Shown here: one piece after another, positions 4,511-27,454 of the stretch
Numbering within the stretch: the stretch's first letter is position 1
Layout: every line of letters starts with the position of its first letter
Virus record (IMG/VR): IMGVR_UViG_3300008120_000490
Coordinates: 1 to 29,226 of that record
Direction: 5' to 3' (one strand)
Origin: a virus
DNA length: 29,226 nucleotides
Made by a program: the position numbers and the translations under genes
The notes under the pieces: model-generated
What the model was told of the DNA's origin: nothing
Databases searched by the model: none
What the model saw: only the letters and a program-made list of their open reading frames with translations

Positions 4511-4512
4511 AA

Positions 4513-6348
4513 ATGGCTAACGAAGATAAAAATATATCATATTTAAATAAAAGTTTTACTGATTTTAAATCGGCATTACAAGAATATGCAAAAACATATT
4601 TCCCAACAACTTACAATGACTTTACAGAAGCAACACCAGGTAATATGTTTATCGAGATGGCTTCCTATGTTGGTGACGTTACTTCATTTTATTTAGATAC
4701 TCAAGTACAAGAAAATTTCTTATTATACGCTAAGGAAAAAGAAAACCTGTATGCTCAAGCATATGTAATGGGTTATCGCCCTAAAGCATCATATGCTTCA
4801 AATACTATAGTTGATGTATATCAAATGGTCCCTTCTGTTTCTAATGATGGAGGAATAAGCACACAACCAGATGTTACAACTTACGGTTTAATCATCCCAG
4901 CAAATACCCCAATAACTTCTACTTCAACAGGTACTAAGTTTTTAACAACTCAACAAATAGATTTTACTAATACAGGTAGTGCAGAGATTACTTTTATGAA
5001 TAGTGATTTTTACTTAATGAAAAAATCAGTTCCTGCAATATCAGCTGAAATTCAAGAAACTACTATTAATATACCAGCAAACCAAAAGTTTGCAACTGCT
5101 GTTATTGAAGATACTAATATATTACAAATATTGAATGTAACGGGAAGTGATGGTAATTTTTGGTATGAAGTTCCTTATTTAGCTCAAACTTCTGTTTTCC
5201 AAAAAATATCAAATCCCGGAGTTAATTCAGATCAAGTACCTTATTTATTACAATTACAAAGAGTTCCTAGACGTTTTGTTTCTAGAATATTATCTGATAA
5301 TACATTACAATTAGAATTTGGTGCAGGTTTATCTACAGATAAAACAGATAGTCAAATTATTCCAACAGCAGGTAATATTGAAGCAGGTTCTGTACCTGGT
5401 ATTTCATTATTAACTAATAATTACAATGAAGCATCTACCTTCTTTACTCAAGAATATGGTTTAGCACCATCAGGTTCGTTAACAATTAAATACTTAACTG
5501 GTGGTGGTATTACATCAAACGTACCAGTAAATGATTTAACTGCTATAGATAAAACAAATATATACTTTAAAAACGGAGACCCAGATGATTCTTTATCTGC
5601 TACTGTTATTAATAGTGTAATATCTTCAAATCCATCCCCATCAACAGGAGGTAGAAATGGAGATACAGTTGAAGAAATTAGACAAAACGCTTTATATTCT
5701 TTTTCAACTCAATTAAGAGCTGTAACTAAAGATGATTATATAGTAAGAACATTAGCTATGCCTGCTGATTACGGTACTGTATCTAAAGCATATATATCTC
5801 AAGATTTATACCAAAACCCACAACAAACAGTAGCACATACACAAAATCATAATCCTTTATCTTTAGATTTATATGTGTTGTCTTATAACAATAATAAACA
5901 ATTAACAACAGGATCTGTAACATTAAAAGAAAATTTAGTAACTTACCTTAATCAATATAGAATGGTTACTGATGCTATTAATATTAAAGATGCTTATTAT
6001 ATTAATATTGGTGTTAATTTTGATATAACTGTATTAAGTGGATATGCTAATAAAGATGTTTTAACTTCTTGTATATCAGTTTTACAAGATCATTTTAATA
6101 TAGACAAATGGCAAATTAACCAACCAATTATTTTGTCTGATGTAACATCTAAATTATTACAAACTAAAGGTGTTCAATCAGTTACTAAATTAGAAGTTGT
6201 AAATAAACAAGGAGGAAATTATTCACAATATGGATATGATATTGCGGGTGCAACTAAGAACGGTAATATTTATCCTTCATTAGATCCTGCTATATTTGAA
6301 GTTAGATTCCCTAACACAGATATACAAGGTAGAGTAGTAGTAAGTTAA
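4513..6348 (+). CDS. 6: baseplate wedge protein, gp6-like (gpJ family)
   Basis: The 611-residue product is close in length to T4 gp6. The N-terminus has the characteristic helix-rich start: residues around 10-100 include YFPTTYNDFTEATPGNMFIE, MASYVGDVTSFYLDTQVQEN and AYVMGYRPKASYAS, the last close to the ALGYxP motif of baseplate J proteins. A beta-rich middle follows, then the segment around 385-420 (GDTVEEIRQNALYSFSTQLR, AVTKDDYIVRTLAMP), which is also typical of gpJ/gp6. In the baseplate gp6 forms the ring that joins the six wedges and changes shape on contraction. It directly follows the gp25-like gene. Confidence 0.88.
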   Translation: MANEDKNISYLNKSFTDFKSALQEYAKTYFPTTYNDFTEATPGNMFIEMASYVGDVTSFYLDTQVQENFLLYAKEKENLYAQAYVMGYRPKASYASNTIVDVYQMVPSVSNDGGISTQPDVTTYGLIIPANTPITSTSTGTKFLTTQQIDFTNTGSAEITFMNSDFYLMKKSVPAISAEIQETTINIPANQKFATAVIEDTNILQILNVTGSDGNFWYEVPYLAQTSVFQKISNPGVNSDQVPYLLQLQRVPRRFVSRILSDNTLQLEFGAGLSTDKTDSQIIPTAGNIEAGSVPGISLLTNNYNEASTFFTQEYGLAPSGSLTIKYLTGGGITSNVPVNDLTAIDKTNIYFKNGDPDDSLSATVINSVISSNPSPSTGGRNGDTVEEIRQNALYSFSTQLRAVTKDDYIVRTLAMPADYGTVSKAYISQDLYQNPQQTVAHTQNHNPLSLDLYVLSYNNNKQLTTGSVTLKENLVTYLNQYRMVTDAINIKDAYYINIGVNFDITVLSGYANKDVLTSCISVLQDHFNIDKWQINQPIILSDVTSKLLQTKGVQSVTKLEVVNKQGGNYSQYGYDIAGATKNGNIYPSLDPAIFEVRFPNTDIQGRVVVS

Positions 6349-6359
6349 AAATTAAAGAT

Positions 6360-6959
6360 ATGAATTTAGAAAAATTAAAAGGACATGTTCCTGAAGCTGT
6401 AATAGCTCAAATCCCTGCTGTAATGGAAAAATTCCAAATTAACACTCCATTACGCTTAGCTCATTTTCTAGCACAGTGTGGTCATGAATCTGGTGGATTT
6501 CGTTTAACAAAAGAAAATTTAAATTATAGTGCTAAAGGTTTAATGGGTATATTCAAAAAATATTTCCCAACGGAAGCACTAGCTAAACAATACGAGCGCA
6601 AACCAGAAAAAATTGCAAACAAAGTATACGGTGGTAGAATGGGTAACGGCCCTGAAGTATCTGGTGATGGTGCTAAGTATTGTGGTCGTGGTTATATCCA
6701 ATTAACTGGTAAAGACAATTATACGGCATTTGGTAAATCTATTAACGAAGACTTAACAAAAGACCCAACAGTAGTAGCTAGCAAATATGCTCTATTATCA
6801 GCTGCATGGTTCTTTAATAAGAATGGCTTACATAAATTAGCAGATGGTGGTGCAACGGACGCTGTTGTTACACAAATTACTAAACGTGTTAACGGTGGTA
6901 CAATTGGTTTAGCTGATCGTATTAAGCATTTTAAAGAATATCACGCTTTACTTGCGTAA
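6360..6959 (+). CDS. glycoside hydrolase family 19 enzyme (endolysin or tail lysozyme)
   Basis: A 199-residue single-domain GH19 protein. This family hydrolyses beta-1,4 links in chitin, and in phages usually those in peptidoglycan. The catalytic glutamate lies in FLAQCGHESGGF (E43). The family signature YCGRGYIQLTGKDNY is at 107-121, with AAWFF at 148-152 and VNGG at 177-180. Unlike plant chitinases it has no extra binding domain, and no signal peptide or membrane segment is visible. No holin candidate lies beside it. It sits between the gp6-like gene and tail protein genes, so it may be a particle-borne enzyme acting on entry, or the lysis enzyme. The gene has a G+C-neutral, house-style codon use. 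Confidence 0.9.
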   Translation: MNLEKLKGHVPEAVIAQIPAVMEKFQINTPLRLAHFLAQCGHESGGFRLTKENLNYSAKGLMGIFKKYFPTEALAKQYERKPEKIANKVYGGRMGNGPEVSGDGAKYCGRGYIQLTGKDNYTAFGKSINEDLTKDPTVVASKYALLSAAWFFNKNGLHKLADGGATDAVVTQITKRVNGGTIGLADRIKHFKEYHALLA

Positions 6960-12892: not shown

Positions 12893-13555
12893 ATGGCAAT
12901 TTTAAATCCTACGACAGTAACAGTAGATGCAATATTAACCACGAAGGGCCGCGAATTGTTGGCTCGTAACGATGGTTCATTTCAAATCACACAGTTTGCA
13001 TTAGCAGATGATGAAGTTGATTATACCTTGTACAACCCAAATCACCCATCTGGATCTGCATTCTATGGTGAAGCAATTGAGAATACTCCTATTTTAGAGG
13101 CTATTCCTAACGAATCGCAAATTATGCGTTATAAATTAGTAACTTTACCTCGTGGTACTTCTAAATTACCAGTTATTAACTTAGGTTATAACAGTATCTC
13201 ATTACGTCAAGGAGCTTCATTAACAATTACTCCACAAACACTTAACTACTTAGGTGCTACAAGTACATTTGAAGCAAACGGATATACAGCCACAATTGCT
13301 GATTCTCGTTTAGTATCTTCATTCTCAGGAACAGGTATTACAACAACAACCCCAGTTTCAGATTTAAATACTACAACAGGAGCTGTTTTATCTGTAACTC
13401 AAGTTGGTACTTCATTCTCACTTACAGGTACAACAATTAATACATTATTTGGTTCTACATTATCATCATTAACAACTACAATTACAGTAATTGGTAGAGA
13501 TAGTGGTGCTAGAATTACTATTCCTTTGAATATTCAAAAAGTATCAACAATCTAA
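12893..13555 (+). CDS. virion structural protein with C-terminal Ig-like domain
   Basis: 220 residues. The N-terminus carries ILTTKGRELLARNDGSFQIT and FALADDEVDYTLY (about residues 15-47), a block I recognise from structural proteins of marine and freshwater T4-like phages. Residues 75-130 form strands (YKLVTLPRG, PVINLGYNSISL), and 145-218 look like an immunoglobulin-type beta-sandwich (LSVTQVGTSFSLTG, LTTTITVIGRDSGARITIPL). No membrane segment is present. It starts a cluster of three genes with very small gaps leading into the Thr-Pro adhesin locus. Likely a tail or fibre-attachment component. Confidence 0.65.
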   Translation: MAILNPTTVTVDAILTTKGRELLARNDGSFQITQFALADDEVDYTLYNPNHPSGSAFYGEAIENTPILEAIPNESQIMRYKLVTLPRGTSKLPVINLGYNSISLRQGASLTITPQTLNYLGATSTFEANGYTATIADSRLVSSFSGTGITTTTPVSDLNTTTGAVLSVTQVGTSFSLTGTTINTLFGSTLSSLTTTITVIGRDSGARITIPLNIQKVSTI

Positions 13556-13563
13556 TTTAACAT

Positions 13564-14550
13564 ATGTCATTCTCAAGATATAACACCGATGATTCAGTAA
13601 TCAGTTCAGAAACCGTAGTACGTGGTTTATGGAGTGGAGATAACAACAGTATAAGTAACTTCTTTACAGCTAGTACTTATTCAGAATATTATTTAGATGT
13701 TTATAACAACTGTGAATTATGTTCTGGTTCTTCAGTACAATTTGCAATCCAATATGGTAACGTTAGCGGTAGAGGTTCTAAGTTAATTAATACAGCAGTA
13801 ACTGGTGCTTCACCTTCTCGTATAGTATATGGTGAATATAGAAATTTAGTTTATGGTACTGAAGATGCTTATTTTTCTTTTGATAATGGTGCTACAACAG
13901 GAAGTGATATTTTTGTAATTAATGTAGCTCGTAATCGCTACAAAGAATCTTTACTACCTGGTTCATTTAATTTAACTTTAGCTAGTGGTAGTAATTCAAT
14001 TAGATTAACAGATGATAGCGGTACTACAAATTTAACTCGTTACATTGGTGAAAATAGAGTATTTTATATCATTAGTGGAAGTAATGGTAACGCATATACA
14101 TCAGCGGCTTCATCTTCTTATTACGGAATGATGTTCCCTGATTTAGATATTATTGTTTTAAATGCTACTTCTTCCACAACAGTAAATTTATTACCTTATT
14201 TTACTGCATTAGGAACATCAACTAGTACACCTCAAAATAACCACGTTAAACTTTACAACTCAATAGTTTCAGGTTCTTCATTCCAATTAAGATCTCAAGA
14301 AACAGTATCTTCAAGATATTTCTTTACAAGAGTAAAAAATAGCGAATTTAACTATACAACAAACCCATCTATTATAGATGCAAATGGTAACTTATTATAC
14401 ACAACTTTAATTAACAATCCACAAACATACGTTACAACAGTAGGTATGTACAATGATAATAATGAGTTATTGGCAGTTGCTAAATTAAGTAAACCATTAA
14501 CAAAAGATTTTACCAAGGAAGCCTTAATTAGAATTAAATTAGACTATTAA
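13564..14550 (+). CDS. tail structural protein with a C-terminal module shared with the 26681 gene
   Basis: 328 residues, beta-rich with many Ser/Thr/Gly. The N-terminus (SFSRYNTDDSVISSETVVRG) leads into repeated strand patterns such as YYLDVYNNCELCSGSS. The last 35 residues contain VGMYNDNNELLAVAKLSKP. This is nearly the same as IGLYNDNNDLLAVAKFSKP near the end of the protein at 26681-26983, about 12 kb away on the other side of the adhesin locus. The match also shows at the DNA level, so the two ends share ancestry. The gene lies eight bases after the 220-residue gene and three before the first Thr-Pro gene. Likely a baseplate-proximal fibre or collar component. Confidence 0.62.
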   Translation: MSFSRYNTDDSVISSETVVRGLWSGDNNSISNFFTASTYSEYYLDVYNNCELCSGSSVQFAIQYGNVSGRGSKLINTAVTGASPSRIVYGEYRNLVYGTEDAYFSFDNGATTGSDIFVINVARNRYKESLLPGSFNLTLASGSNSIRLTDDSGTTNLTRYIGENRVFYIISGSNGNAYTSAASSSYYGMMFPDLDIIVLNATSSTTVNLLPYFTALGTSTSTPQNNHVKLYNSIVSGSSFQLRSQETVSSRYFFTRVKNSEFNYTTNPSIIDANGNLLYTTLINNPQTYVTTVGMYNDNNELLAVAKLSKPLTKDFTKEALIRIKLDY

Positions 14551-14553
14551 TGC

Positions 14554-15972
14554 ATGTCGGCGTTCAAAAAACTAAGCAAATCAGACGTTACGGTCGTACC
14601 GTATGCCGCTAACAAGCAGTGGAACTTAAACCAGTGCTCGTATCCGACATCTTCAGAGTATTTTACAATTTATAAAGGAACTAATTTAACAGATAGTTTT
14701 AATGCCGATACTGACCCTGTTACTGAAGGTCAATATGAAAGACTAGTTTATAATCAAATTAATCATTTATTCTACCAAACATATTCAGCTAGTTTAAATA
14801 CTAGCTCATTAATGTTTACGTTAGATAATTATGAGTCTGCTTCCCAACAACGCCCAACTGCATCTTATTTTATATATAATGATAATGCTAATTTAATTAA
14901 GAATTTTCCAACAGGATCTAATGCTAGTATTAGAGTAATAGCAATTAATCAAGATATATACGGTAATAAAATATTACCAAATACCTTTGTTTTAACTTCA
15001 TCTATATACAGTATTAAAGATGATGGTTTTGGTAATCTTTACTATTATGATTATTACCATGTAGGAAATATATTTTATGCCCATGGTTTAGCAATAATCA
15101 CAGATCCTCTTTTTCAAGGAATATTCCCACTTCCTACATTAACTAAACCAGCAACATTTACTTTTTATAATAATACTATAAATTCAAGTAGTATTGCTAG
15201 TTACATAGATAGTAGAGATACTACTGTTGATTATTCAACATTAATATTATCTGGAAGTCCTTATATTATTCAAAGTGGAAGTACAAATAATATTATTTTA
15301 AATACAACCACTCCTGGAACTTATGAAACATATTATAGCATATATGGTACAATAACAGGTAGTTGTGGAAATGTACTTAGTAATAAAGCTAAAATAACAA
15401 TTAAGTTACTTAAATCTATTGATTGTAAATTTGCAACTTCTGCTTCTTCTGTAAATGTTGGATGTAATTTCCAATTAATTGCTTCAACAACACCATTTAC
15501 TCCAATAGCAACACCAACTCCTACACCAACACCAACTCCGACTCCAACACCAACTCCGACTCCAACCCCAACCCCAACCCCAACTCCAACCCCTACCCCT
15601 ACTCCAACACCAACACTAACACTACCTCCATCACCAACTCCAACTCCAACTCCAACCCCTACTCCAACACCTACACCTACACCAACACCAACACCTACAC
15701 CTACACCAACAGGTACACCTACTCCGACACCTACACCAACTCCAACTCCAACTCCGACTCCAACACCTACACCAATATGTACTTTAGTGGGTGAAATTAC
15801 TTTATTAAATTGTAATTTAACGGGTAATATTTCTTTAAATATTCCAACTCCTACACCAACCCCTACACCAACAGGTACACCAACTCCGACTCCAACTCCA
15901 ACTCCAACACCTACCCCTACACCAACACCAATATGTACTTTAGTAGGCAATATTAGTTTAATAACACCTTAA
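14554..15972 (+). CDS. adhesin-like protein with two Thr-Pro hinge arrays
   Basis: 472 residues. Residues 1-315 are a beta-rich Ser/Tyr-rich domain. A long TPTP array follows (320-407), broken by TLTLPPS and TGT. A short module begins [13 protein letters not shown], then comes a second TPTP array (431-459), and the protein ends with a cut-down copy of the module ([13 protein letters not shown]). The repeat of module plus array suggests growth by duplication, or a worn-down remnant of a longer protein. The first 35 codons use more TCG, GCG, GTC and CCG than the rest. No signal peptide is present. It opens the Thr-Pro locus, directly after the 328-residue structural gene. A host-surface-binding fibre is the likely role. 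Confidence 0.65.
15511..15774 (+). repeat. Thr-Pro hexanucleotide array 1 (in gene 14554)
   Basis: Six-base repeat of pattern ACN CCN read as Thr-Pro, with mixed third bases and breaks at TLTLPPS and TGT. It is a coding hinge and not a satellite between genes. Confidence 0.9.
15844..15930 (+). repeat. Thr-Pro hexanucleotide array 2 (in gene 14554)
   Basis: Shorter ACN CCN array with one TGT break. It is flanked on both sides by copies of the ICTLVG module. Confidence 0.9.
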
Positions 15973-15982
15973 TCAACTTCAA

Positions 15983-15990
15983 ATATTTAT
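15983..15990 (+). promoter_or_regulatory. ATATTTAT element, candidate late promoter (upstream copy)
   Basis: First of two ATATTTAT copies in the 60-base gap before the gene at 16033. It lies 42 bases before the ATG. Confidence 0.35.
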
Positions 15991-16018
15991 AGGTATATAA
16001 AAATTTAATTCAATCACA

Positions 16019-16026
16019 ATATTTAT
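16019..16026 (+). promoter_or_regulatory. ATATTTAT element, candidate late promoter (downstream copy)
   Basis: The second copy in this gap, six bases before the ATG at 16033. The 13 bases from 16019 are identical to 857-869. Confidence 0.35.
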
Positions 16027-16032
16027 TGATAC

Positions 16033-16884
16033 ATGGCACTTCCTATAATAGTAAAATTAACAACCGCTGGGGCTGATACAGGTCCTTTTGATTTATACAC
16101 ATGTACATCTAGTGACTGTACATCATGTAGTGGATCTGCTTTTGCAACAAATGTACCTAAATCAGCTATTACAGGAAGTGGTTATTCTACAACAGTGCCT
16201 GATGGTACTGCTGCTGTAAAAGTTGTATCAACTGGAACTTGTACAAATAATGTTTGTATTACAATACCTCCAACTCCAACTCCTACACCAACTCCGACTC
16301 CAACCCCGACTCCAACTCCTACACCAACTCCGACTCCAACACCAACGGGAACACCAACTCCTACACCAACACCAACCCCTACACCAACCCCAACCCCTAC
16401 ACCAACACCAACACCAACTAATATTTCATATGTATTCTATGCTGCTCCTGGTAGTACAGGTGCTACTAGTGATTTTATAGCATATTCATCTAATACATTT
16501 ACATTTAGATATAATAGTGCTTCTGAAGATTTTAGTACTTATATAGGTAGAAGAATTTCACAAAATGATAGAATTACAACGTATACTCACGATGTATGTG
16601 CTGATAAAGCATCTATTATTTATAACTTAACTTACCCACAAAAATCAGGTCAAACTGCACCAGATATTGCAGCATATATTGCTCACCCAACATCTATGGG
16701 TACTATAACTGCTTATATAGATACAAACACTCCATTATTCCCTAACGGTCCTGCTCCAAATGGAGGTGCAACATCAAATGCACTTGGTACCTTTACATAC
16801 AACGGTATAAACTATAGAATGTATAGATTATTTGCTAACCAACCAGCAGGAACAACAATAAACGCACAAGTAACAGCATGTTAA
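16033..16884 (+). CDS. adhesin-like protein: head domain, Thr-Pro hinge, tail domain
   Basis: 283 residues in three parts. Residues 1-78 are a cysteine-containing beta domain with [10 protein letters not shown] (16-25) and paired cysteines ([15 protein letters not shown]). This resembles the heads of the proteins at 24962 and 25805 (GPF.IY motif, cysteines just before the hinge). Residues 80-129 are the TPTP hinge with one TGT break. Residues 131-283 are a separate beta-rich domain ([40 protein letters not shown]) not seen in the other Thr-Pro proteins. The head-hinge-tail build suggests a head that attaches to the particle and a tail that binds the host, but orientation is inferred. Confidence 0.65.
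16270..16419 (+). repeat. Thr-Pro hexanucleotide array 3 (in gene 16033)
   Basis: ACN CCN array of about 25 units, broken once by a TGT triplet of residues. Confidence 0.9.
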
Positions 16885-16901
16885 AATTAATTATATAAAA
16901 G

Positions 16902-17747
16902 ATGGCACTTTTTCCAATACAATCAACAGGTATAAAACTTACAAATATACTATCAGTAAATTCAGAAACTGTTAAGTATGGTACTCACTTCTCTCATTTT
17001 GGTGTAGGAGGATATCAAGAATTTCCTTCTAGTAGTTATATATACAGTATTCCTATTGATACTCAAATGAATGAAGATGGATGGTCATCTGGAAGAAGAA
17101 TGTTTGGTATGGTTGTTTATGATATTAAAGAAAAAAAATTCTATCAATTACGACCAAAACTATCAGGCTCAAATACAGAAGTAAGTGCATCTCAATTTGA
17201 AGCTGCTAACGATGCTCAAAAAATGGTTTGGTTAGATCCAACCCAAACAAGAGATGATCCTGACTTTTTCCCATTAGCTGGTTCTGGAAACCCAGCAGAA
17301 GCATGGACTGAAGTATTTTCTCCTCTTAGTATTAATAATAATACAAATAACTATATTTTAACAGCTACTGGTAATAGCGGTAGTGTTAATGGTGAACAAA
17401 ATTTAAAATTTGATGGCTCTGTATTAGTAGTTACAGGTTCATTAACAGTTTCTGGTTCTGCTACAGCACAATCATTCTTCCAAAATTCAAGTCGTACATT
17501 AAAAACAAACATTATTCCATTTGAAAAATCAGCTATCAATTTATTAGATAGTGTAAATGTAGTTGAATTTAATTATTTAAATGACTTAACAAATAAACAC
17601 ATTGGATTTATCGCTGAAGATACTCCTGTTGAATTATCTACATTAAACCAAAATGTAATGGATACTAACTCAACTGTTGGTGTTTTAATTAAAGCAGTAC
17701 AAGAGTTAACTCAAAAGGTTAAAGAATTAGAGTCAAAACTTAAATAA
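16902..17747 (+). CDS. tail fibre protein with C-terminal Peptidase_S74 chaperone domain
   Basis: 281 residues. The end is a typical intramolecular chaperone (Peptidase_S74, as in T5 L-shaped fibre and endosialidase tail spikes). The segment NSSRTLKTNI (195-204) gives the catalytic serine (S196 or S197) and lysine (K201) of self-cleavage. VVEFNY (220-225), KHIGFIAED (232-240) and a C-terminal coiled coil (VGVLIKAVQELTQKVKELES) complete the domain. The family normally folds as a trimer and cuts itself off. The preceding residues 165-195 (LKFDGSVLVVTGSLTVSGSA) are a fibre stalk of the kind often found before S74. Residues 1-130 form a unique head. It is the only gene for a long fibre with S74 in this window and has no Thr-Pro hinge. 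Confidence 0.82.
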   Translation: MALFPIQSTGIKLTNILSVNSETVKYGTHFSHFGVGGYQEFPSSSYIYSIPIDTQMNEDGWSSGRRMFGMVVYDIKEKKFYQLRPKLSGSNTEVSASQFEAANDAQKMVWLDPTQTRDDPDFFPLAGSGNPAEAWTEVFSPLSINNNTNNYILTATGNSGSVNGEQNLKFDGSVLVVTGSLTVSGSATAQSFFQNSSRTLKTNIIPFEKSAINLLDSVNVVEFNYLNDLTNKHIGFIAEDTPVELSTLNQNVMDTNSTVGVLIKAVQELTQKVKELESKLK

Positions 17748-17754
17748 TTAAATA

Positions 17755-18582
17755 GTGAGAATAAACGGTTATTTAGTAACATGGGATGATTTAGCCTTAA
17801 TGGGCACTCTAATTAATCCATCCAATCCAGCTCCTACTGGTAATAAAATTGTTACTAAAGCTGAAGGATTAACTTATTATAATTTCCAAACATCTCCTTT
17901 AGAAGCATATGCTTCAAATCAATGTCCTCCTTATGAGGCTTGGGTAGCTATAGTAAGTACACCAACACCAACACCAACATCAACCCCAACAGCTACTCCA
18001 ACCCCAACACCAACTCCAACCCCAACCGTAGCAACACCAACCCCTACAGTAACTCCAACACCAACACCAACTCCTACTGTTGCAACTCCAACTCCAGCAG
18101 CAACCCCAACACCAACGCCAACGCCTACACCAACACCTACTCCAACTGTAGCTACTCCAACTCCAACGGCAACTCCGACGCCAACACCTACACCAACTGT
18201 AGCAACTCCGACGCCAACGGCAACCCCTACACCAACAGCAACACCTACTGAAGCAACTCCAACCCCAACACCTACCCCTACACCAACACCTACACCAACA
18301 CCTACACCAACACCTACTGAAGTAACCCCAACACCAACTCCAACTCCAACCCCTACTCCTACCCCAACAGAAGCAACGAAGCAACTCCGACGCCAACTCC
18401 AACACCTACTGAGGCAACTCCGACGCCAACTCCAACTCCAACCCCTACACCAACACCTACTGAAGCAACTCCAACACCAACTCCAACCCCTACTCCTACC
18501 CCAACACCAACTCCAACCCCAACACCTACCCCTACACCAACTCCTACACCAACACCTACACCAGTTGCATCAGCCTCATTAG
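17755..18582 (+). CDS. adhesin-like protein, N-terminal part, frame broken in the hinge
   Basis: From a GTG at 17755 the reading frame gives 275 residues. The first 68 form a head ([37 protein letters not shown]) unlike the heads of the other Thr-Pro proteins. A long hinge decorated with VATPTP, EATPTP and TATP units follows. After 18377 the frame is lost: residues change from EATPTP to [11 protein letters not shown] and stop at 18582. The cause is an 8-base tandem duplication at 18370-18385. Removing one copy restores the hinge and joins this part to the open frame that runs to 20084, a 773-residue protein. The head and hinge are convincing; the out-of-frame last 70 residues are an artefact of the shift. 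A GTG start is unusual here; the next in-frame ATG (17800) would cut into the head. Confidence 0.6.
17959..18563 (+). repeat. Thr-Pro hexanucleotide array 4, the longest, with V/E-A insertions
   Basis: About 600 bases of ACN CCN repeats interrupted at irregular intervals by GTA GCA, GAA GCA or GCA units, giving VATP, EATP and TATP at the protein level. Sub-blocks repeat at a longer scale, so it has grown by copying of blocks as well as single hexamers. It holds the frameshifting duplication. Confidence 0.9.
18370..18385 (+). repeat. 8-base tandem duplication (GAAGCAAC twice) causing a frameshift
   Basis: GAAGCAAC at 18370-18377 is directly repeated at 18378-18385. One copy reads Glu-Ala-Thr in the hinge, as at other EATP sites. 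Two copies shift the frame by two bases. Reads or culture would show whether it is real. Confidence 0.85.
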
Positions 18583-20084
18583 CAATTCATTTAGAAGAAT
18601 ATAATGCATCTCCAACATTCTTAGATGCTAATATTAGAGTAAATGGAACTTGGTATTATTTCTCAGGTGACTTTACAACCAATGTTAATGGTGATACACT
18701 TGATACTATTCAATTAGAAGCTGCTGAAGCAACCCCTTCTAATTTCTGGGGATCTTATACAACAGGAAGTGCTAAGTTATTAGTATATGAAAATGGTACT
18801 TTAATACATAATAATACTAATACTTACTATAGTGGTAGTGGTAATCAAATATTTAATCAAGCTGTAACTTATAGTGCAGGTAAATCATATGTAATTTCAG
18901 GTTCTACTTCACCAAAATTAAGTTGTTATAATGTATCTCTATTAGATTATGTAACAGGAGAGTGTTATTCATTCCCTAATGAATATGAAGATCTTCAAAC
19001 AGTTACTGTTACTTTAGATGCTCCTGCATTTACTGATATTAGAGTATCGGGTTCATTAACTAATGGTACTCCATTTGATACTACAATCCCCGCTGGATTT
19101 ACTGATATTATATTATGGAATGCTACTTGTGGATGTGGTACACCTTGTTTAACTGGAAACGGTGTAGCTGAAATTTGGGTAACATCAAATGAAGGAACAG
19201 TTTCAATTCCTAGTTGTGGACCTGTAATAAATGCATTCCAAGCTTTATTCCCAACTCAAAGCTTATTTTTAACAGCTATATCTTATAATTGTGTAACACC
19301 AAGTATAAGATTTAATTTCACAGGTGGTGTAGCTCCATATTCTGCAAGTATATCTAGAGATTCTAATGGTAATCCAATTTGGTCATATACTAATATCACT
19401 ACAACTCCATTTGATGCTACATCAGTACCATCAGGACAAATTTATTATCCTGCTATTAAAGATGCTACTGGTACAATTGTTGAAGGATCTCCAATAACTG
19501 ATTGTGCTACATTAGATGCAACATTTAAAATAGATAATTCATTAAATCCTTTAGCAACAGGTAATATTTTTTATCCTGCTATACTCGTTTCAGGATCTCA
19601 AAATAGAGGAACAAGCTTTAGAATAACAGGTAGCAGAAATACACAAGTTAGTGTTACTGCTGTGGTGGGTAGTGGTACAACATTCTTAGGATGGTCATTT
19701 GTTTCTAGTAGTAAAGCAAGTATATTTGAAACAGCTAATACTATTCAAATTCCATTAACAAATACAGGTAGTATATATTATGCTATAATTGATAGAAATG
19801 TAGTTTCTGCTTCATTCTGTTATTATAATGCAGATCCAATAGGAACAACAGCTTGTGATGCTTGTGCTGTTACTAAAACTATTTATTATAATGGTAATTT
19901 ATTAACAGGTTCTAATTATGCTGGTTTAACTTGGTTTAAAGATGTTAACTTAACAACCACAGCTGATGAGGGATATTACAAACTAAACACAATATTAGGT
20001 TCACCAATATATCAAGTATCTGCAGGACCAACACAAACTAAAACATTAACTGGATATTGTACAGACGTAATTTTAACATGCTAA
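18378..20084 (+). pseudogene. adhesin-like protein, C-terminal part of the 17755 gene (out of frame)
   Basis: From the second duplicate copy onward a frame reads [10 protein letters not shown] and then a long beta-rich region (starting [20 protein letters not shown] at 18564) to the stop at 20084, about 570 residues. Codon by codon I found no ATG, GTG or TTG in this frame from 18564 until GTG at 19662, so it could not start on its own and must continue the 17755 frame. Features include CGCGTPCL at about 19129-19152, VAPYSASISRDSNGNPIW, and a final portion with CDACAVTKTIYYNGNLL at 19854-19904 and ending CTDVILTC. It may be inactive in this genome copy, or the shift may be an assembly error. 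A short product from GTG 19662 (140 residues) is possible but unlikely to be meaningful. Confidence 0.6.
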
Positions 20085-20085
20085 A

Positions 20086-20093
20086 ATATTTAT
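20086..20093 (+). promoter_or_regulatory. ATATTTAT element, candidate late promoter
   Basis: ATATTTAT lies nine bases before the ATG at 20103. It overlaps TATAAATA (20091-20098), the classical T4 late promoter box, but that box is only four bases from the ATG, too close to start a normal mRNA. Confidence 0.35.
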
Positions 20094-20102
20094 AAATAAC
20101 AT

Positions 20103-23100
20103 ATGCCACTTAATAATTCAGCAACCATATCATTTTCATCATCGAATTTCACTTCTAGCGGACCTATAGGTGCGGATATCGCTGCTCAAACATTAGGTTT
20201 AGGTAATATCAACAATTATAAGTGGGCTAATAAAAGTAGACAAATTGATTTAGGTAATACTAACTATGGTTATATAACTTTAGATATTAGCTACACAGTC
20301 ACAGGAACCGCAGATGTAGTAGCTGTTTCTTTATATAATACTGATAGTATAGTTTCATATTCAACAACATTAAGTGGTCTTTTTACACCACCTTTTGCAG
20401 GAAGCTATATAAAATTACAACCAGGACAAACCACAAGATTGTATGCTATCGTTAATAGTGGAATTAATATCTCTCAATATGTTCCTATCAGTTTTATTGT
20501 GGGAAGAAGAGGTACATTACCTTCAAATGTAACAATAACTTTGGGATATAATTGTACTGATGTAGGTTCTTTGTATAAGTATTTAGTAGATATGCATGCT
20601 TATTCTGCATATGATGCTGCTAATAACGCTAAACTTAAAACCTATCTATATTCAGCAACCCCAATAGGATCTTGGACTACAAATACAGAAGTATATGCTG
20701 CTCCTAACTTTACTCAGTATGCCTTTCCTTATTATTATTCTTATGGTAGTAATACTTATAAAATTGGCGGTGATTTAGAAAGATCTTTTGGTATTCAGAG
20801 ATATGTTGAACTTTATAAAGCAAATGCTTTTCCTTGGACTAAAGTAAAAATCAACCAAAAAGAATCAGAAGTTAAATCTTGGAGGGGAATTGATCTTGAT
20901 GGGTATGTAATGCCAAATTTTGTTTATCCTTATATGTCAAATGCAGGAAAAGTTAAACAAGTATTAACTTCTTCTACTTTAACTCAACCTTCTTCATATA
21001 GATATTATTTAGGTGCTGCTTCTACAGCCCAATCAGCTGCTGATTATTTTACTCAATTTGATTTTGGTAATAGATTAGTACATACTATTACTGGATTTCA
21101 ACATGCTCTACAACATTTATCTGCTGGATTTTTATTAGCAAGTGGAGTAAAATTAAAATCAGATCAACAATTTTTAGAAAATATTCTTATTGCTGCTGGA
21201 GCTGCTTTTTTAAATTGGTGGAATCCAAAAGTTTGGGCAGTATTTGGTAGTGCAAAAGAAGTTATTAGAAATATAGTATTCAATATATGGAAATTAATTA
21301 ATGGTTCTGAATTTTTAAAACTTAGTGGTGGTGGATATACAGGATTTTCTCTTAACTTTTTAGGTCTTTCATTAGGAGTATGGATATTAATTATTGAAAT
21401 TGCAATTATTATATATAAGTTATTACAACCAATAAAAATTCCTGTTTATGAACCTACTATAAATTTAAAATATAGATATGCAAATACTCCCTATCTAAAT
21501 AATGGAACCACTTTATATACAAATACGGATTTAACCACATCAAAATCAGAATATTATTGTGACGGTATATATTTTTATAACCAATCATCAAGTATTTCTA
21601 TATCAAATAAAGAATTATCTTATACTTTAAATGGATTAATAAATAATGATCCTATACAAAAAGGAGTATCATATTCAATTCCTGTAGACACAGGAGACAC
21701 AGGTTCTATAGTTTATGATTTCATGAAACTATTGGCTCTCCCATATTGCTCAGGAAAACCAGATGCAATAAGTGGTACATATAAAAATGTAGCCCAATTC
21801 GTTACTTTTACTCCTTTAAATACTTGTGGAGATTTATTAGAATTTCCTTCAACAGTTACTATTACAATTCCTGAAGGAACTATTATATCAACTGTTTCTC
21901 AAGCAGAAGCTAATGCTGAAGCTTTAGCTTACGCTAATTCAATAACAGCTTCTAGTGCTGCTTCTGCAAGTTATGGTACAATTCATCCAAGTGCAAGTGG
22001 TGCTTTATTTACTTTTACTCATGAAATTAAATTAGAAACTTATCCTAATACGGGAAGTTGTTTCTTTAGTGATACAAACAATGCTGGTTTAACTGTAGGA
22101 AAATCTTTATATTATGATCCTAGTGGAACTAAAAAAGTACTTAACGGATACTATACTGTACCATCAGGATCTCTTAATGGATATTCGTCTTATAGAACAT
22201 TCTTTAAAACAATAAGTGGCTCTGTATCTGATGTTCTAACAATGGCTTCTTCAGGAGATACTACAGTAACTTCTCTTGTAAATTCAGCTACATATACTAT
22301 TCAAACTTCAAATCAAGGATACTCTAGTGATTGGTATTGGTATGACATATCATATAGTGAATTAAATGATAGTATTTCTTATCCTCTAACACCATGTCTT
22401 GATCTTAATACTTTATATAATGATAGTCGTTTAAAAGCTGGATTTAGTTTACCTGATACTTCTTCACTTTATACTTATAACTCTAATACCAGTACAGCAA
22501 GTTATTCCGAAGCAACCCCAGGATGGTATTATGCTTTTGATGTATATGAATATCCTTATCCTTTTGCGTATAGTACACCAGTTACATTATCAATTAATTT
22601 AACTGAAGTTTGCTTTACAGATTATTCTGTAGGCCAACCTTATGGAATTAATATAAGCGGAGCAAGCGGATCAGCTTCATCTTCATTATATTATCCTGTT
22701 AATATGACATTATTAGCTTCTACAGATGATCCAGAAACAGCAGGATATATTATACACGCAACAGCATCAGCTGAAGGTATTACTTATGTTCCTTATCCAA
22801 GTGGAATTACTAAAGATACTAATGTTACTAATGTAACAATACAATCTATTAATTCTCCAAATCCAAATAATAAAATATTATATGTAGCTGGTTCATTTAC
22901 TAACTGTAATCCTAATGTTCCAACCCCTACTCCAACACCTACTCCAACACCTACTCCAACACCTACACCGACACCAACTCCAACACCGACACCAACTCCA
23001 ACCCCTACTCCAACCCCAACACCAGTTTCTGTTGCAGGATATGTTAGCTTAATAGATGAAATATCAGCTTGTGCTGGTGGTGAATATAATAATGTTACTA

Positions 23101-24707
23101 TATCTGTTATGGGCACCACATTATGTAATGCCACTTCAATTACAGGATTATCTTCAGATCCTTTTGGTAATGTATTTGCTGATATGACTACTGGTCAAGA
23201 ATTTTATGTTAGTGATGGAACAAATAGTAGAACATTCTTAAGAAATGGAACTCAAAATAATGCAACAACAGTTAATTCTTGTACCGCATGTCCAACCCCA
23301 ACCCCAACTCCAACCCCAACCCCTACTCCTACTGCTCCAACTCCAACTCCAACCCCAACTCCAACACCAACTCCTACACCAACCCCACCATTAATTAGCG
23401 CATACTTCTTTACAACAGAACCTTCAGGTTATTTAGCTTGTGATGGAGGAACATTAATATCAGTTCAATTAAGTGCTTTAACATTATGTGAAAGCAACAC
23501 ATATACAAGTAACTACTTTACTACGTTAGGAACAACAACATATTGGTTAGCATATGATGGTAATTATGTAAAAATATTCCATAGTGGTACTAGCAATCAA
23601 GCAACAAGAGCTGAAGCTTGTAAAACATGTAATAATGTAGCACCAACCCCTACACCTACTCCAACCCCAACTCCTACACCAACTCCAACTCCGACTCCGA
23701 CTCCAACTCCTACTCCAACACCAACCCCTACTCCAACTCCAACACCTATTCCATTTACTGCTTATATAAGTAATGCAAGTGGTGAAGATGCTTGTAATGG
23801 TGGATTTGGTGAATACTCATTCACAGGAAATGGAACAGGAATATGTGATAGTACTACAGTAAATGCTTCTATAATTGCTGAAGAAATTACATTAGGTGGT
23901 GATTTTTGGTTATCTAATGGAACTAATAGTAGATACTATCAGAGAAGAAGTACACCAATCAATACAACAACAGGTTTAGCTCAAGAAGCTTGTGCTGCTT
24001 GTCCTACTCCTACTCCGACACCAACACCTACACCAACACCAACACCTACACCAACACCAACTCCAACTCCGACTCCAACACCAACCCCAACTCCGACACC
24101 TACACCTACTCCGACACCTACACCTACTCCAACCCCTACACCAACCCCTACTCCTGTATTTGGTGGATTAATTCAATATTCAACTATATCTTCACAATAT
24201 GTTTGTATAAATGGAGGAAGTAGTATTTTTGCAACAGGTAATGAGATTGATTTCTGTTCATCTAATATTCTTTATGCTAGTGGATTTACAAGTTTAGGTA
24301 CAGGTACCTTCTATATTACTAATGGAGGAAATGTTTCTACTTACTATCATAACTCAGGTGCTAATTCAATGTCAAGAATTCAATCATGTACTGCTTGTTC
24401 TTCATTCCCAACACCTACTCCTACACCAACCCCAACTCCAACACCAACACCTACACCTACTCCAACACCAACACCATCAGATTGTGTTTGCTGGACATTC
24501 TTTAATGAAAATAGCTTAAGTGGAGTTGTATATTATGATGGATGTGGTATAGGATCTACTAGTGCTGTAGTAAGTGCAGGTCAATATAGATTTAGATGTG
24601 TAACATTAGGTGATACACCTTATACATTTGATGAGGCAATGACAATATATGAATGTGGATTGCCGAGCAGTTGTACAATAAATACTGAATGTAACGGATG
24701 TTCTTAA
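20103..24707 (+). CDS. giant modular adhesin-like fibre protein (1534 residues) with five Thr-Pro hinges
   Basis: Residues 1-935 form a long beta-rich body, with one strongly hydrophobic helix-like stretch at about 419-442 ([18 protein letters not shown]) unusual for a fibre. From residue 940 the protein is a string of five Thr-Pro hinges separated by small modules. Four modules (975-1063, 1097-1180, 1216-1300, 1352-1435) are related: each is about 85 residues with four cysteines in the order C.GG, a single C after a hydrophobic residue, and C..C just before or near the next hinge. The last domain (1459-1534) is also cysteine-rich (CVCWTFFNE...CNGCS) but different. This beads-on-a-string form suggests several binding heads on one fibre. 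Function as a receptor-binding protein is inferred. Confidence 0.72.
22920..23024 (+). repeat. Thr-Pro hexanucleotide array 5 (hinge a of gene 20103)
   Basis: ACN CCN coding array separating the N-terminal body from the first four-cysteine module. Confidence 0.9.
23292..23390 (+). repeat. Thr-Pro hexanucleotide array 6 (hinge b of gene 20103)
   Basis: ACN CCN array with one alanine replacement (TAPTP). It lies between modules one and two. Confidence 0.9.
23643..23747 (+). repeat. Thr-Pro hexanucleotide array 7 (hinge c of gene 20103)
   Basis: Uninterrupted ACN CCN array between modules two and three. Confidence 0.9.
24003..24155 (+). repeat. Thr-Pro hexanucleotide array 8 (hinge d of gene 20103)
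   Basis: The longest hinge in this gene, between modules three and four, uninterrupted. Confidence 0.9.
24408..24476 (+). repeat. Thr-Pro hexanucleotide array 9 (hinge e of gene 20103)
   Basis: The shortest hinge, before the different C-terminal cysteine-rich domain. Confidence 0.9.
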
Positions 24708-24717
24708 AATAAAATTT

Positions 24718-24957
24718 ATGGCAAATTATAAAGTAACAGTAAAATATAATTTTCAAGACTCAGCTGGGAATCCAGCTGAGATTTTCGTATATTATTTTCC
24801 AATAAGCAACACGGAAAGTGAAGCTAAAGAAAAAATTATAGAATTATTAGGTAATAATTCAAATCTTAGAGAAATACCTTATAATGGTGAAATATATAAT
24901 ATCCCAACCAATACGGCTATTATTATAGGAGCCCAAGAAGTAGTAAAACCAAGTTAA
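24718..24957 (+). CDS. small protein in the adhesin locus, function unknown
   Basis: 79 residues: MANYKVTVKYNFQDSAGNPA, then a helix (TESEAKEKIIELLGN) and two strands (TNTAIIIGAQEVV). It looks like a compact alpha/beta fold with no cysteine, membrane segment or Thr-Pro hinge. It lies ten bases after the giant fibre gene and four before the next adhesin gene, so it is surely co-transcribed with them. It could be an assembly chaperone or a capping protein for a fibre. No family is recognised. Confidence 0.6.
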   Translation: MANYKVTVKYNFQDSAGNPAEIFVYYFPISNTESEAKEKIIELLGNNSNLREIPYNGEIYNIPTNTAIIIGAQEVVKPS

Positions 24958-24961
24958 TTAA

Positions 24962-25786
24962 ATGGCATTTTCATACAACATAAAAATAGTTCCAGCTACA
25001 GGATCAGAAGCACCTCTAAGTACAAGTACTTACAGTGTGTATTATGATCAAATTAAACCTAGCAATTTACTTAGCGGAAGTATTGCTCAAACTAGTTTAT
25101 TATCTAATTTTGTTATTAGTAATATTCCTGATAACGCTGTTTCGTTAATTGTAAAAAGTGATGATCCTGATTGTTGTTGTGATGCACAATCGTATAGATT
25201 CCCAACCCCAACCCCTACACCTACTCCAACACCTACACCTACTCCAACCCCAACTCCAACCCCGACACCTACACCTACTCCAACCCCTACACCTACACCT
25301 ACACCTACTACTCCAACTCCAACCCCTACACCAACAACACCAACCCCGACACCAACCCCGACACCTACACCAATTTATACAATTACTTTAACTAACCCAG
25401 GATCAGGTAATAATTCAAGCTATCAATTAGGTGGAGATTTTAATACTGGTGATACAGTTGTAATAAGAGCTGTATTTTCTGGTACAGGAGGAAATGCAGT
25501 TAATTTTGAGGGTAGAGCTGATTTAACTTTATCTAATGATGCAACAAGTAGTAGTATTCAATCTTCTTGTTTCCCTGTAGGAACTCCAATGGGTTGGAAT
25601 TTACAAAGAGAAATTACTTTTAGTTATAATACTATTAACTCTGTGATAAGTACAATAGCAGTAGTAAATAACGGTAGCACCAGTGCTAGTGGACTTACTG
25701 TATCTATAGTAAGTGTAAATGGAATTGCTGTTACAGCAAATAACGCAAACGGTAATAAGGGTAATAGTGGAGGTTCTGTTTGCTAA
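24962..25786 (+). CDS. adhesin-like protein: head domain, Thr-Pro hinge, tail domain
   Basis: 274 residues. Residues 1-80 are a small beta domain ending in [11 protein letters not shown] just before the hinge; the same CCC mark stands before the hinge in the 25805 protein, and the fold pattern resembles the head of the 16033 protein. Residues 81-137 are the hinge, with two TTP breaks. Residues 138-274 are a glycine- and serine-rich beta domain ([50 protein letters not shown]) ending GNSGGSVC. The tail shares no clear similarity with the other tails in the locus. Probably a short fibre or decoration protein. Confidence 0.65.
25202..25372 (+). repeat. Thr-Pro hexanucleotide array 10 (in gene 24962)
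   Basis: ACN CCN array with two extra threonine codons (TTP) that leave the frame intact. Confidence 0.9.
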
Positions 25787-25791
25787 AAGTA

Positions 25792-25799
25792 ATATTTAT
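25792..25799 (+). promoter_or_regulatory. ATATTTAT element, candidate late promoter
   Basis: ATATTTAT lies five bases before the ATG at 25805, in an 18-base gap. The surrounding AATATTTATAACATATG is very like the region before 20103. Confidence 0.35.
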
Positions 25800-25804
25800 A
25801 ACAT

Positions 25805-26662
25805 ATGGCTAAAAAACAAATAACAATCAGATCCACCTCAGGTACGACTTCAGGTCCCTTTAGTATATATCATTCGTCTATACTAAGTGACAATCTACTT
25901 GAAGAAAATATAACATCTGGTAGTTTAGCAGCAGGTAAGACATATCGTGTAGATAGAGCTATCGAGGAAATAATAATAGTAAACACAAATAGTGATTGTT
26001 GTTGTAGTGTTGAAAAAATAAATTTATATGCAACTCCAACACCTACCCCTACTCCAACCCCTACACCTACTCCAACACCAACACCAACCCCCACCCCAAC
26101 ACCTACCCCTACTCCAACCCCTACACCTACACCTACACCAACCCCTACACCAACTCCAACACCGACACCTACACCAACACCAACCCCAACTCCAACACCA
26201 ACCCCAACTGAGACTCCAACACCGACACCAACTGATACTCCAACAGCTACACCAACTGCAACACCTACACCTACACCAACACCAACACCGACTCCAACTC
26301 CTACACCAACTGAGACTCCAACACCTACAGTAACTTATTTCTACTATTCAGTTAGAAAATTTGATTGTAATAATTTCTGTACTCAAGTAACACCTGATGT
26401 AGTAGGTAGATCAAGTACAGCATTATCAACATCTAATGGATTATATTATAAAGTAGGGTCATTTACTTACCAACTACAAACTGAAGTGTTAGGGCCAACA
26501 TATGATGTTAATTTAGATGGTGCTCCTTCAAATTCTGACTGTGCAACGGCTTGTACAACTAATTATACATGTCCTTCTGTTCCTGGTTCTTGTTATGCTA
26601 CATTAGCAGAATGTGAAGCAGCAGGTTGTATAAATTGTGCTCAAACAGTATGTGCTCCATAA
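25805..26662 (+). CDS. adhesin-like protein: head domain, Thr-Pro hinge, cysteine-rich tail
   Basis: 285 residues. The head (1-76) contains [11 protein letters not shown] (15-25) and [10 protein letters not shown] (62-71), matching the heads of 16033 (DTGPFDLY) and 24962 (PDCCCD). The hinge (77-175) is long and decorated with ETPTP, DTPTA and TATP units, like array 4. The tail (176-285) starts [16 protein letters not shown], has [15 protein letters not shown] and SDCATACTT, and ends with a cysteine-dense stretch ([20 protein letters not shown]). The order of strands and cysteines in its first half recalls the four modules of the giant fibre, though distantly. The cysteines may form disulfides or bind metal. 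Confidence 0.66.
26033..26329 (+). repeat. Thr-Pro hexanucleotide array 11 (in gene 25805)
   Basis: About 300 bases of ACN CCN repeats. The second half contains ETP, DTP and TAT units. Confidence 0.9.
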
Positions 26663-26680
26663 AATAAAATATTTAAATAA

Positions 26681-26983
26681 ATGGCTTACTTAGGAAATTT
26701 TACACTATCATTTAAAAACGAACATATAATCGAGGAAAACGAGGTTAGATGTTTAGTTGAAGAAAGTGATTTTAATCTATCTTACAATCCAACAATTGTA
26801 AATGGTAGTTATATTGGTGGTATAGTAAAAGATTTTGCTACTGGTTCTGAATTTACTACTTATACAACACAAATAGGTTTATATAATGATAATAATGATC
26901 TATTAGCTGTTGCTAAGTTTAGTAAACCAATTTTGATATCTCCAGATACTGATATGACATTTGTCGTTAAATACGACGTTTAA
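26681..26983 (+). CDS. small structural protein sharing the C-terminal module of gene 13564
   Basis: 100 residues. Residues 1-55 are beta-rich (YLGNFTLSFKNEHIIEENEV). Residues 64-85 (YTTQIGLYNDNNDLLAVAKF and on) match the C-terminal segment of the 328-residue protein at 13564-14550, where VGMYNDNNELLAVAKLSKP is found. Both end a few strands later in a lysine/aspartate/tyrosine-rich tip. The gene is thus a short relative that keeps mostly the common end domain, which may be the part that docks to the particle. An ATATTTAA lies five bases before its ATG. Confidence 0.65.
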   Translation: MAYLGNFTLSFKNEHIIEENEVRCLVEESDFNLSYNPTIVNGSYIGGIVKDFATGSEFTTYTTQIGLYNDNNDLLAVAKFSKPILISPDTDMTFVVKYDV

Positions 26984-26998
26984 AATAAAATTATAGTT

Positions 26999-27454
26999 AT
27001 GTTTCAAGTTTTAGGTCCTGCTACTGAGGTAGAGGATATGATTAAAGATCCATCGTTTGATATTACTGAATATTATGGTTATGTTTATATGACTGTTCAT
27101 ACTAAAACAGGCCGTACTTACATTGGTAAAAAAGCATTCCAACACACTCAAACAAAAAAATTAGGTAAGAAAGAATTAGCTGAAATTCCTGTTACTAGAG
27201 GCAAAAGACCATCTAAAAAAACAGTAGTTAAGGAAAGTGATTGGAAAACATATTACGGATCAAACACAGAAGTAAAATCACTTCCAAAAGACGAAATGAA
27301 ACGTTACGTGTTAATGTTATGTAGAAATAAAAAAGAATTAACATACTGGGAAACTAAATGCTTATTTCAGTACAATGTTCTAGAAGATGATCGTTACATG
27401 AACGATAATATATTAGGTAAATTCTACCGAAAAGATTTGTTAGGGTCAGAGTAA
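26999..27454 (+). CDS. GIY-YIG-like nuclease family protein (putative)
   Basis: 151 residues. The pattern fits the GIY-YIG nuclease fold: YGYVYMTVHT (26-35) supplies the GIY-type tyrosine strand, RTYIGKKAF (39-47) the YIG strand, KESDWKTYYGSNTEV (78-92) follows, and KKELTYWETKCLFQ (111-124) provides a candidate metal-binding glutamate (E118), with an asparagine-containing end (DNILGKFYRKD). Small phage proteins of this type are common beside replication genes of T4-like phages. It could cut DNA as a free-standing homing-type enzyme or serve in repair; the exact substrate is unknown. It precedes the primase gene by 18 bases and starts the replication block after the virion genes. Confidence 0.55.
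   Translation: MFQVLGPATEVEDMIKDPSFDITEYYGYVYMTVHTKTGRTYIGKKAFQHTQTKKLGKKELAEIPVTRGKRPSKKTVVKESDWKTYYGSNTEVKSLPKDEMKRYVLMLCRNKKELTYWETKCLFQYNVLEDDRYMNDNILGKFYRKDLLGSE

Follow-up and report, generated by a model that had tools for sequence, protein, structure and literature searches.

A probable tail-fibre locus of a T4-like phage with head and tail domains exchanged at or next to Thr-Pro stalk arrays and one repeat dialect per genome

Host-contact proteins of phages are known to be mosaics, but the joints between their parts are seldom as visible as in the locus considered here, in which many genes of a head-stalk-tip type lie side by side. The locus is found at 14554-26662 of a contig of a T4-like phage (IMG/VR record IMGVR_UViG_3300008120_000490, positions 1 to 29,226; this entire 29-kb stretch is referred to as the window). 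It comprises six genes, g1 to g6, in which segments called heads and tails are separated by arrays of Thr-Pro (T/P) repeats. What do these genes encode, and what part do the arrays play in their diversity? As repeats mark the joints, a cross could tell whether linkers direct recombination or simply permit it. An earlier note, made from the sequence alone, had described eleven T/P arrays in the six genes, and these arrays, their coordinates and the domain layout were confirmed (Table 1). Uninterrupted T/P runs span 9-59 residues, and the pattern did not arise by chance, because overlapping matches to (ACNCCN)x5 number 179 on the + strand, whereas neither the - strand nor a reversed control pattern gave any.

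Our answer, which we hold to be probable, is that this is a tail-fibre, i.e., host-contact, locus of a T4-like phage, and that its genes encode adhesins composed of a head, one or several Thr/Pro stalks and tips, which are exchanged at or next to the stalk arrays, with a single repeat dialect in each genome. The virion setting proposed in the earlier note gains support from synteny with the cultured relative Flavobacterium phage immuto, where the gene order is homologues of the two left border genes up2 and up1, one further gene, a tail fiber, two tail spikes and a gene that bears the label NAD synthetase. In immuto the fibre and spike genes are thus enclosed by up2/up1 homologues on the left and by a GIY-YIG gene on the right, and the locus of the window occupies the matching position. 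The S74-type fibre gene noted earlier between g2 and g3 was also confirmed: Peptidase_S74 (PF13884) is found at the C-terminus of the product (residues 196-240 of 281; 34.1 bits, cut-off 22), and an S74 fibre lies beside array genes also in the relatives L014 and L019. In such proteins the heads would anchor the molecule in the virion and the tips would make contact with the host. Swaps across a stalk, presumably of extended shape, would give the phage access to new tips with the reading frame preserved, because the repeat phase (ACN CCN) would fix the frame.

Head and tail combinations in relatives

The comparison of relatives is based on 199 sequences in 134 DNA clusters, the set being made up of 196 contig loci, two phage records and the window itself; two scans for relatives kept the best 80 of 524 and the best 80 of 548 confirmed relatives, and the frequencies below are not population estimates. 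The array set comprises 117 open reading frames (ORFs) with a T/P-rich array of at least 30 amino acids (aa), found in 51 of the 134 clusters, where ORFs with arrays of <30 aa and segments of <40 aa were dropped. Segments were grouped into families (D0, D1 and so on) by single-linkage BLAST clustering (E <1e-5 over at least half of the shorter piece), a definition that may split remote relatives and inflate the numbers of partners. The families include D1 (g1 head; 34 segments in 31 clusters), D0 (short heads, e.g., those of g5 and g6; 46), D3 (g3 tail; 13) and D4 (g4 head; 12). Eight core genomes were picked for which an assignment of arrays to genes was possible. L014/L115 denotes two contigs that overlap over 1318 nucleotides (nt) at 99.7% identity, L019/L114 is one contig and L119 is the same as L010. 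Loci found after the main tables were examined for the presence of arrays only.

The earlier note had predicted domain swaps among relatives with the switch at or near arrays, and such swaps are seen. The D3 tails are found behind heads of three families: D11 (L114, L115 and, via a broken frame, the window), D1 (L009, L119 and L182) and D0 (L011, L013, L065, L067, L074 and L180). Already among those D3 tails that are 52-65% identical to that of the window the heads vary, being D1 in L009 and L010 and D0 in L011 and L013; both L010 and L013 harbor one extra module between head and tail, and the tail ORF of L011 is itself interrupted. A single gene of L009 joins the g1 head to the g3 tail, and g2, the S74 gene and the g3 head were not found between them. 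Modules also move across genes, as seen for D6, which is part of g4 in six clusters and stands behind a D1 head in L138, and for D20 (behind D0 and D1), D23 (behind D4 and D1) and D26 (behind D4 and D0).

The closest comparison involves the window, L115 and L114, for which pairwise identities (window-L115/window-L114/L115-L114, in %) are: g1 head 89/67/67, g2 head 89/56/65, g2 tail 58/54/49, S74 77/65/65, g3 head 88/80/81, g3 tail 40/40/88, g4 head 48/47/92 and g5 head 90/44/45. L014/L115 is therefore a mosaic: its g3 tail and g4 head are L114-like (88-92%) and only 40-48% identical to those of the window, while the g1, g3 and g5 heads are window-like (88-90%). The right switch of this mosaic is located inside g4 array 1, where the head is L114-like until the array and the next module is ~90% window-like. 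The g5 gene of L115 is a clean hybrid with the switch in the array; its head is 90% identical to that of the window and 48% to that of L114, and its tail is 84% identical to that of L114 without any match to the window tail.

The same behavior is seen when array flanks are compared between the eight core genomes. Here, 42 of 70 genome pairs combine a left flank of at least 45% identity with a right flank of <30%; the background for unrelated flanks has a mean of 19% and a maximum of 32%, and pairs with a flank of <40 aa, i.e., nearly all of those for g1, were dropped. Such discordant pairs make up 1/1 for g1, 0/3 for g2, 23/28 for g4 array 1, 13/28 for g5 and 5/10 for g6, while at three control points inside the g4 head none of 84 pairs was discordant. 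The mean difference between left and right identity is 35.6 points at arrays, 13.0 at the border between up1 and g1, and 4.6-12.8 inside heads.

Could these joints be artefacts, i.e., chimeras in which short-read assemblers joined different phages through the low-complexity arrays? The swaps and the frame break of g3 (see below) would then both be artefactual. Arrays do coincide with contig ends, as in L015, which matches L014 at 100% identity over 13,792 nt and breaks off within the g3 array, and the frame break is located in an array as well. Nevertheless, we regard this explanation as very unlikely, because arrays mostly keep the dialect of their own contig and chimeras would therefore need partners with the same dialect. 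In addition, one switch was mapped to a site beyond the array, nine clusters contain D3 tails combined with D0 or D1 heads, and arrays, one of them of 3996 nt, are identical between separate datasets (L185 and L187).

A number of observations weigh against the reading of exchange at the arrays of virion adhesins. The left switch of the L014 mosaic is found in a conserved stretch of the tail, ~60-135 nt beyond the g3 array, and swaps are also found inside the D3 tail. In five of the 13 D3 tails the similarity to the window type is confined to the C-terminal part, at 25-35% identity, and the families may be over-split. Among tail families present in at least two clusters, 13 of 19 keep one head family, and D2 is combined with D0 in 12 of 12 clusters. 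In the flank test, g2 gave no discordant pair, and g1 was hardly represented after removal of the short flanks. Furthermore, we infer that the array proteins reside in the virion, and the tips showed no recognized receptor-binding fold in the PDB and BFVD comparisons of the g4 module and D0 head models.

The joint past the array and the swaps inside the D3 tail are in line with an explanation where recombination or illegitimate joining takes place anywhere and the survivors are those with joints in flexible linkers, such that arrays would show where joints are tolerated without favoring them; we give this explanation a nearly even chance. The short exact DNA matches between arrays of different window genes (below) speak for it as well. 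Against it stand the duplicated g4 modules of L010, L011, L114 and L115, which are flanked by an array on both sides, as unequal exchange would give: blastn matches run from array to array, and 14 of 16 ends are found in arrays and two lie 1-4 nt outside, a point that weighs little since blastn end points within repeats are imprecise.

Three side observations concern heads and tails of single relatives. In L010 (15404-15610) and L011 (15311-15532) g6 apparently consists of a head only, with dn1 following within ~30 nt and no array found there. L028 carries, on the same contig, another partial g1-head match in inverted orientation (12114-11695, 39% identity). The C-terminus of a g1-type protein of L152 (3277-6368) resembles a Hint/intein-type domain, judged by a motif.

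DNA, length and peptide dialect of the arrays

A more active role was proposed for the arrays by the earlier note, in its strong form that of a recombination hot spot where arrays pair by homology and drive in-frame swaps and changes in length, together forming a passive generator of diversity. We consider this explanation possible but somewhat improbable. It is supported by the switch points inside arrays in L115 g5 and g4 array 1 and by the array-to-array duplication of modules, and also by data on the arrays themselves, among them differences in length in pairs of 83-92% identity. Several arrays contain long exact internal repeats (97, 92, 59, 59, 56, 51 and 47 nt versus 23-28 nt after codon shuffling), which is a sign of segmental duplication inside arrays. 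Of the 17 differences between the contigs L156 and L157 (6425 sites, 99.7% identity), 8 fall in one 36-nt array patch (L156 2814-2849) where two peptide units are changed and the length is kept; the patch looks like a short conversion tract.

The evidence against a hot spot is found in the lengths of arrays (below) and in the DNA that different genes have in common. When window arrays from different genes are compared, the longest exact match has a mean length of 22.5 nt and a maximum of 32 nt, as compared to 22.4 and 33.1 nt when synonymous codons were shuffled per array, and recent exchange of hinge DNA between genes is thus not supported. The other seven core genomes are found at the same null, except L009 (a single 38-nt pair, which was reached by 3/60 shuffles) and L013 (mean 20.3 versus 18.1 nt, 0/60). 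The repeat units do keep some local codon order, because the mean exceeds that of a block shuffle in 8/8 genomes (reached by ≤1/60). Codon choice differs somewhat between arrays and domains; for Pro in the window, CCA makes up 0.61 and 0.44, respectively. The z values for codon identity at lags 2 and 4 vary in sign (from -2.1 to 2.4; at longer lags 3.4 and 3.2 in L012), and the arrays of the window, with their scrambled synonymous codons, are not near-perfect short repeats at the DNA level (z -0.7 at lag 2 and 0.1 at lag 4). In other words, the arrays are not simple microsatellites, though they duplicate internally.

Variation in array length, which the earlier note expected among relatives, is seen in part: lengths differ in pairs of 83-92% identity, but in contig pairs of 99.7-100% identity, several of which may represent one phage, all ten arrays compared in full are equal in length. 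The lengths of g5 arrays (63-79 aa in eight genomes, coefficient of variation 0.09) and g6 arrays (109-130 aa in five genomes, coefficient of variation 0.07) are conserved across dialects, while those of g1 (102-190 aa in six genomes) and of g4 array 1 (34-74 aa in eight genomes) are more variable; these lengths include a few flanking residues, and the g1 set omits the fused genes of L009 and L010. Together with the lack of a consistent excess at lags 2 and 4, the equal lengths in near-identical contigs and the conserved lengths of g5 and g6 give no support to simple slippage as a general origin of the arrays. The head and tail swaps predicted earlier are seen in relatives, while the mechanism proposed for them, shared hinge DNA and slippage, is not established. 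The 3996-nt array of L185 and L187 (4516-8511) is composed of T/P/S, and L188 is 100% identical to L185 over 20,336 nt.

The earlier note also described the hinge as the same everywhere. This statement applies to the genome of the window at the protein level; it applies neither at the DNA level nor across relatives, where the arrays are built from genome-specific units: TP (the window and L014/L115), ATPT (L009), NTPT with QTPT (L013 and L010), APTT (L114), AAPTT (L012; mixed in L011) and TPSI-like units in other relatives, e.g., L149. For 65 arrays of eight genomes, tetrapeptide similarity is 0.816 between different genes of one genome, 0.161 between the same gene of different genomes and 0.164 when both differ. 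Upon permuting genome labels within gene classes, the maximum was 0.350, and none of 2000 trials reached the observed value. The nearest array outside the own gene and genome comes from the own genome in just 34 of 65 cases, because some genomes share a dialect. A wider test (95 genes in 32 clusters) gave 0.862 within and 0.363 between clusters (0/2000 permutations), with within-similarity the larger in 31 of 32 clusters, the exception being L139; of these clusters, some comprise two or more genomes (L017 in L009, L144 in L029 and L152 in L149), L180 includes a partial repeat (L181) and the broken g3 of the window counts as two genes. Short poly-Thr linkers that replace T/P arrays in L026, L028, the L035 cluster and L147 are perhaps another dialect.

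In some relatives the dialect does not follow the adjoining domains. The g1 heads of L017 and L018 lie in a block of 87.8% DNA identity, yet their arrays are of the APST and ATPT types, and the g3 tail, g4 head and g5 tail of L115 are closest to those of an APTT genome, but the adjoining arrays are TP. A comparison of array edges with the interior was too weak to decide: the own dialect profile fits best in 40/64 left and 37/64 right edge windows, and in 44/57 and 47/57, respectively, one step inward.

The arrays of one genome agree in peptide unit and not in codons, which calls for an explanation by selection that acts on the peptide in all these genes, or by homogenisation so slow that little trace is left in the DNA. 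Most likely, both contribute: the arrays of a lineage would be slowly homogenised, and selection would act on the peptide at the same time. A more far-reaching proposal, which we put forward as doubtful, is that of a genome-wide linker dialect: adhesin-like stalks share one peptide unit that is kept or re-imposed on incoming foreign domains instead of being inherited with them, with a stalk length fixed for each gene, such that adhesins could be plugged in and the dialect would serve as their code of compatibility or modification. In another explanation, the dialect would be the substrate motif of a phage or host enzyme that acts on the stalks (e.g., for Thr O-glycosylation), where selection holds the peptide unit and the codons drift. 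The peptide unit is indeed common to the genes while the codons are not, Thr is present in every dialect seen, and L115 has TP arrays of the resident type next to its incoming g3 tail, g4 head and g5 tail, the closest source found having APTT. Even so, an enzyme substrate of this kind appears unlikely; no enzyme was identified (glycosyltransferases were not searched for), and the prolyl-hydroxylase-type domain PF13640 was found in 2 of 25 contigs, neither of which was an array-rich one.

Prolyl hydroxylation as a cause of the dialect was rejected, given that the two contigs were L189, with one marginal array, and L172, with none. Genes of the prolyl 4-hydroxylase type are found in these two contigs and in L032 (3078-3677; Microcystis phage Mel-JY01), and in none of the array-rich contigs among the 25 tested.

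Whether selection or homogenisation lies behind the dialect, the answer would show how low-complexity virion stalks arise and persist. The dialect might also be of use in assigning adhesin fragments in metagenomes to one phage. For the locus as a whole, the reading of exchangeable head-stalk-tip adhesins is the one retained below.

Layout of the locus, its neighbours and predicted folds

The features of the window are listed in Table 1. The layout given in the earlier note agrees with that found here, except that g3 is not one open frame: an 8-bp tandem duplication, the only tandem 8-mer of its kind in the window, shifts the frame within the array, and head and tail therefore lie in different frames. 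The g3 copies of L014 and L019 are uninterrupted, and the break in the window may be a true mutation or an assembly error.

Table 1. Features of the locus and its surroundings in the window
Feature	Position	Strand	Description
Baseplate wedge genes	4097-6348		upstream of the locus; gp25 (PF04965, 56.7 bits, cut-off 27.2) and a gp6-like protein (PHROG matches)
GH19-type endolysin	6360-6959		between baseplate genes and locus
up2	12893-13555	+	left border; 91-95% identity in most relative loci compared; homologue in immuto tail-fibre region
up1	13564-14550	+	left border; 71-92% identity in most relative loci compared; homologue in immuto tail-fibre region
g1	14554-15972	+	two arrays; D1 head 14554-15507, array 1 15511-15774, short segment (ICTLVG..) 15775-15843, array 2 15844-15930
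g2	16033-16884	+	one array; D7 head, array 16270-16419, D12 tail
S74-type fibre	16902-17747	+	without array; PF13884, E 3.5e-8
g3	17755-20084	+	one array; D11 head 17755-17958, array ~17959-18563, D3 tail 18564-20081; frame broken in window contig
8-bp tandem duplication	18370-18385	+	inside g3 array
g4	20103-24707	+	five arrays; D4 head 20103-22919 (DUF5977, E 3e-9), four related small Cys modules, C-terminal domain
g4 arrays 1-5	22920-23024, 23292-23390, 23643-23747, 24003-24155, 24408-24476	+	
g5	24962-25786	+	one array; D0 head, array 25202-25372, tail without relative found
g6	25805-26662	+	one array; D0 head, array 26033-26311 (one interruption), D10 tail
dn1	26681-26983	+	conserved right border; 68-91% in relatives except immuto and Mel-JY01
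GIY-YIG gene	26999-27454	+	PF19835, E 2e-24; adjoins locus; counterpart immuto26A_171

The source is probably an uncultured T4-like phage with a host among the Bacteroidota. The top match of the gp6-like protein among phage records is immuto (45.5% identity over 99%). Homologues of up1 were found in bacterial genome contigs, i.e., in four contigs of metagenome-assembled genomes, two of which are labelled Winogradskyella and Flavobacteriaceae, no more than a hint at the host. No reverse transcriptase was found among the Pfam matches of the 20 stretches scanned in the window, which is a 29-kb fragment. The right border gene dn1 resembles the C-terminal part of up1 (14278-14499; 34%), as though both borders of the locus share a domain. 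The product of the GIY-YIG gene of the window and of its counterpart immuto26A_171 (L031 38477-38914) is named NAD synthetase by PHROG 447 and in the immuto record, while Pfam assigns a GIY-YIG endonuclease domain (PF19835); the former is probably a mislabel that is spreading.

Pfam and PHROGs matches in the locus comprise S74, DUF5977 in g4 and low-complexity families (phrog_15511, phrog_38031 and PARP). Searches with tblastn among 50,697 phage records gave no match to the g4 head, the g6 head or a D0-D2 protein, and for the g5 tail of the window none of 23 pattern matches in a viral scan was confirmed.

Structure prediction, suggested in the earlier note for heads and tails, yielded models of the g4 Cys module (pLDDT, i.e., predicted local distance difference test, 93.5; confident) and of the D0 head (80.2; moderate), neither with a significant relative in the PDB. 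The best PDB match of the module had E 0.68, and a second look gave a best Z of 4.1; its single BFVD match (E 3.4e-4) is an uncharacterised phage protein of 721 aa. For the D0 head, the best PDB match had E 0.26, and fibronectin-III/Ig-like chains were found at Z up to 6.2, which is not conclusive. The host-contact role rests on synteny, S74 and layout, and not on fold.

Comparison with known systems

In work of Tetart et al. from 1998, the T-even adhesin gp38 was reportedly found to contain hypervariable segments between conserved glycine-rich motifs, with recombination taking place between the conserved motifs. The locus of the window is similar in that conserved low-complexity segments part variable host-contact segments and coincide with the joints of exchange, and it differs in having Thr/Pro stalks for Gly motifs, several genes instead of one and a genome-wide dialect. 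No gp38 family was found among the Pfam and PHROGs matches of the array genes, which were not scanned for glycine motifs. The glycine-rich motifs of gp38 are also treated in excerpts of a further source (PMC12529663).

Collagen-like (Gly-X-Y) tail fibres of prophages provide a second parallel; according to excerpts of the relevant paper (PMC3368898), a repeat stalk links N-terminal attachment domains and C-terminal binding domains that are variously combined, which was ascribed to recombination. The array genes share with these fibres the repeat stalk with differing combinations of N- and C-terminal domains. In contrast, they gave no Gly-X-Y (PF01391) match, and their repeats are T/P/A/N/I/S units. 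More generally, low-complexity regions in prokaryotes and phages may arise via slippage and recombination, the longest phage case in the set described in the consulted part of that study being 115 aa (PMC6821194).

With the tail-fibre locus of immuto the window has the border genes and the 45.5% identical gp6-like baseplate protein in common, but its g4 and g6 heads have no tblastn match there. At the level of the locus, the host recognition cluster of pelagimyophages, where T4-like phages that infect aquatic bacteria have a hypervariable island for host recognition among their structural genes (PMC7029224, in the portion consulted), resembles the arrangement found here, which would likewise be a host-recognition island in the structural region of a T4-like phage. 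The difference is found in the building blocks, since that portion of the source describes collagen repeats and other domains and not Thr/Pro stalks or dialects. A search of the open-access literature found nothing on Thr-Pro stalk dialects in phages, which does not prove novelty. Mosaicism of domains at linkers is already known, while the genome-wide dialect looks new.

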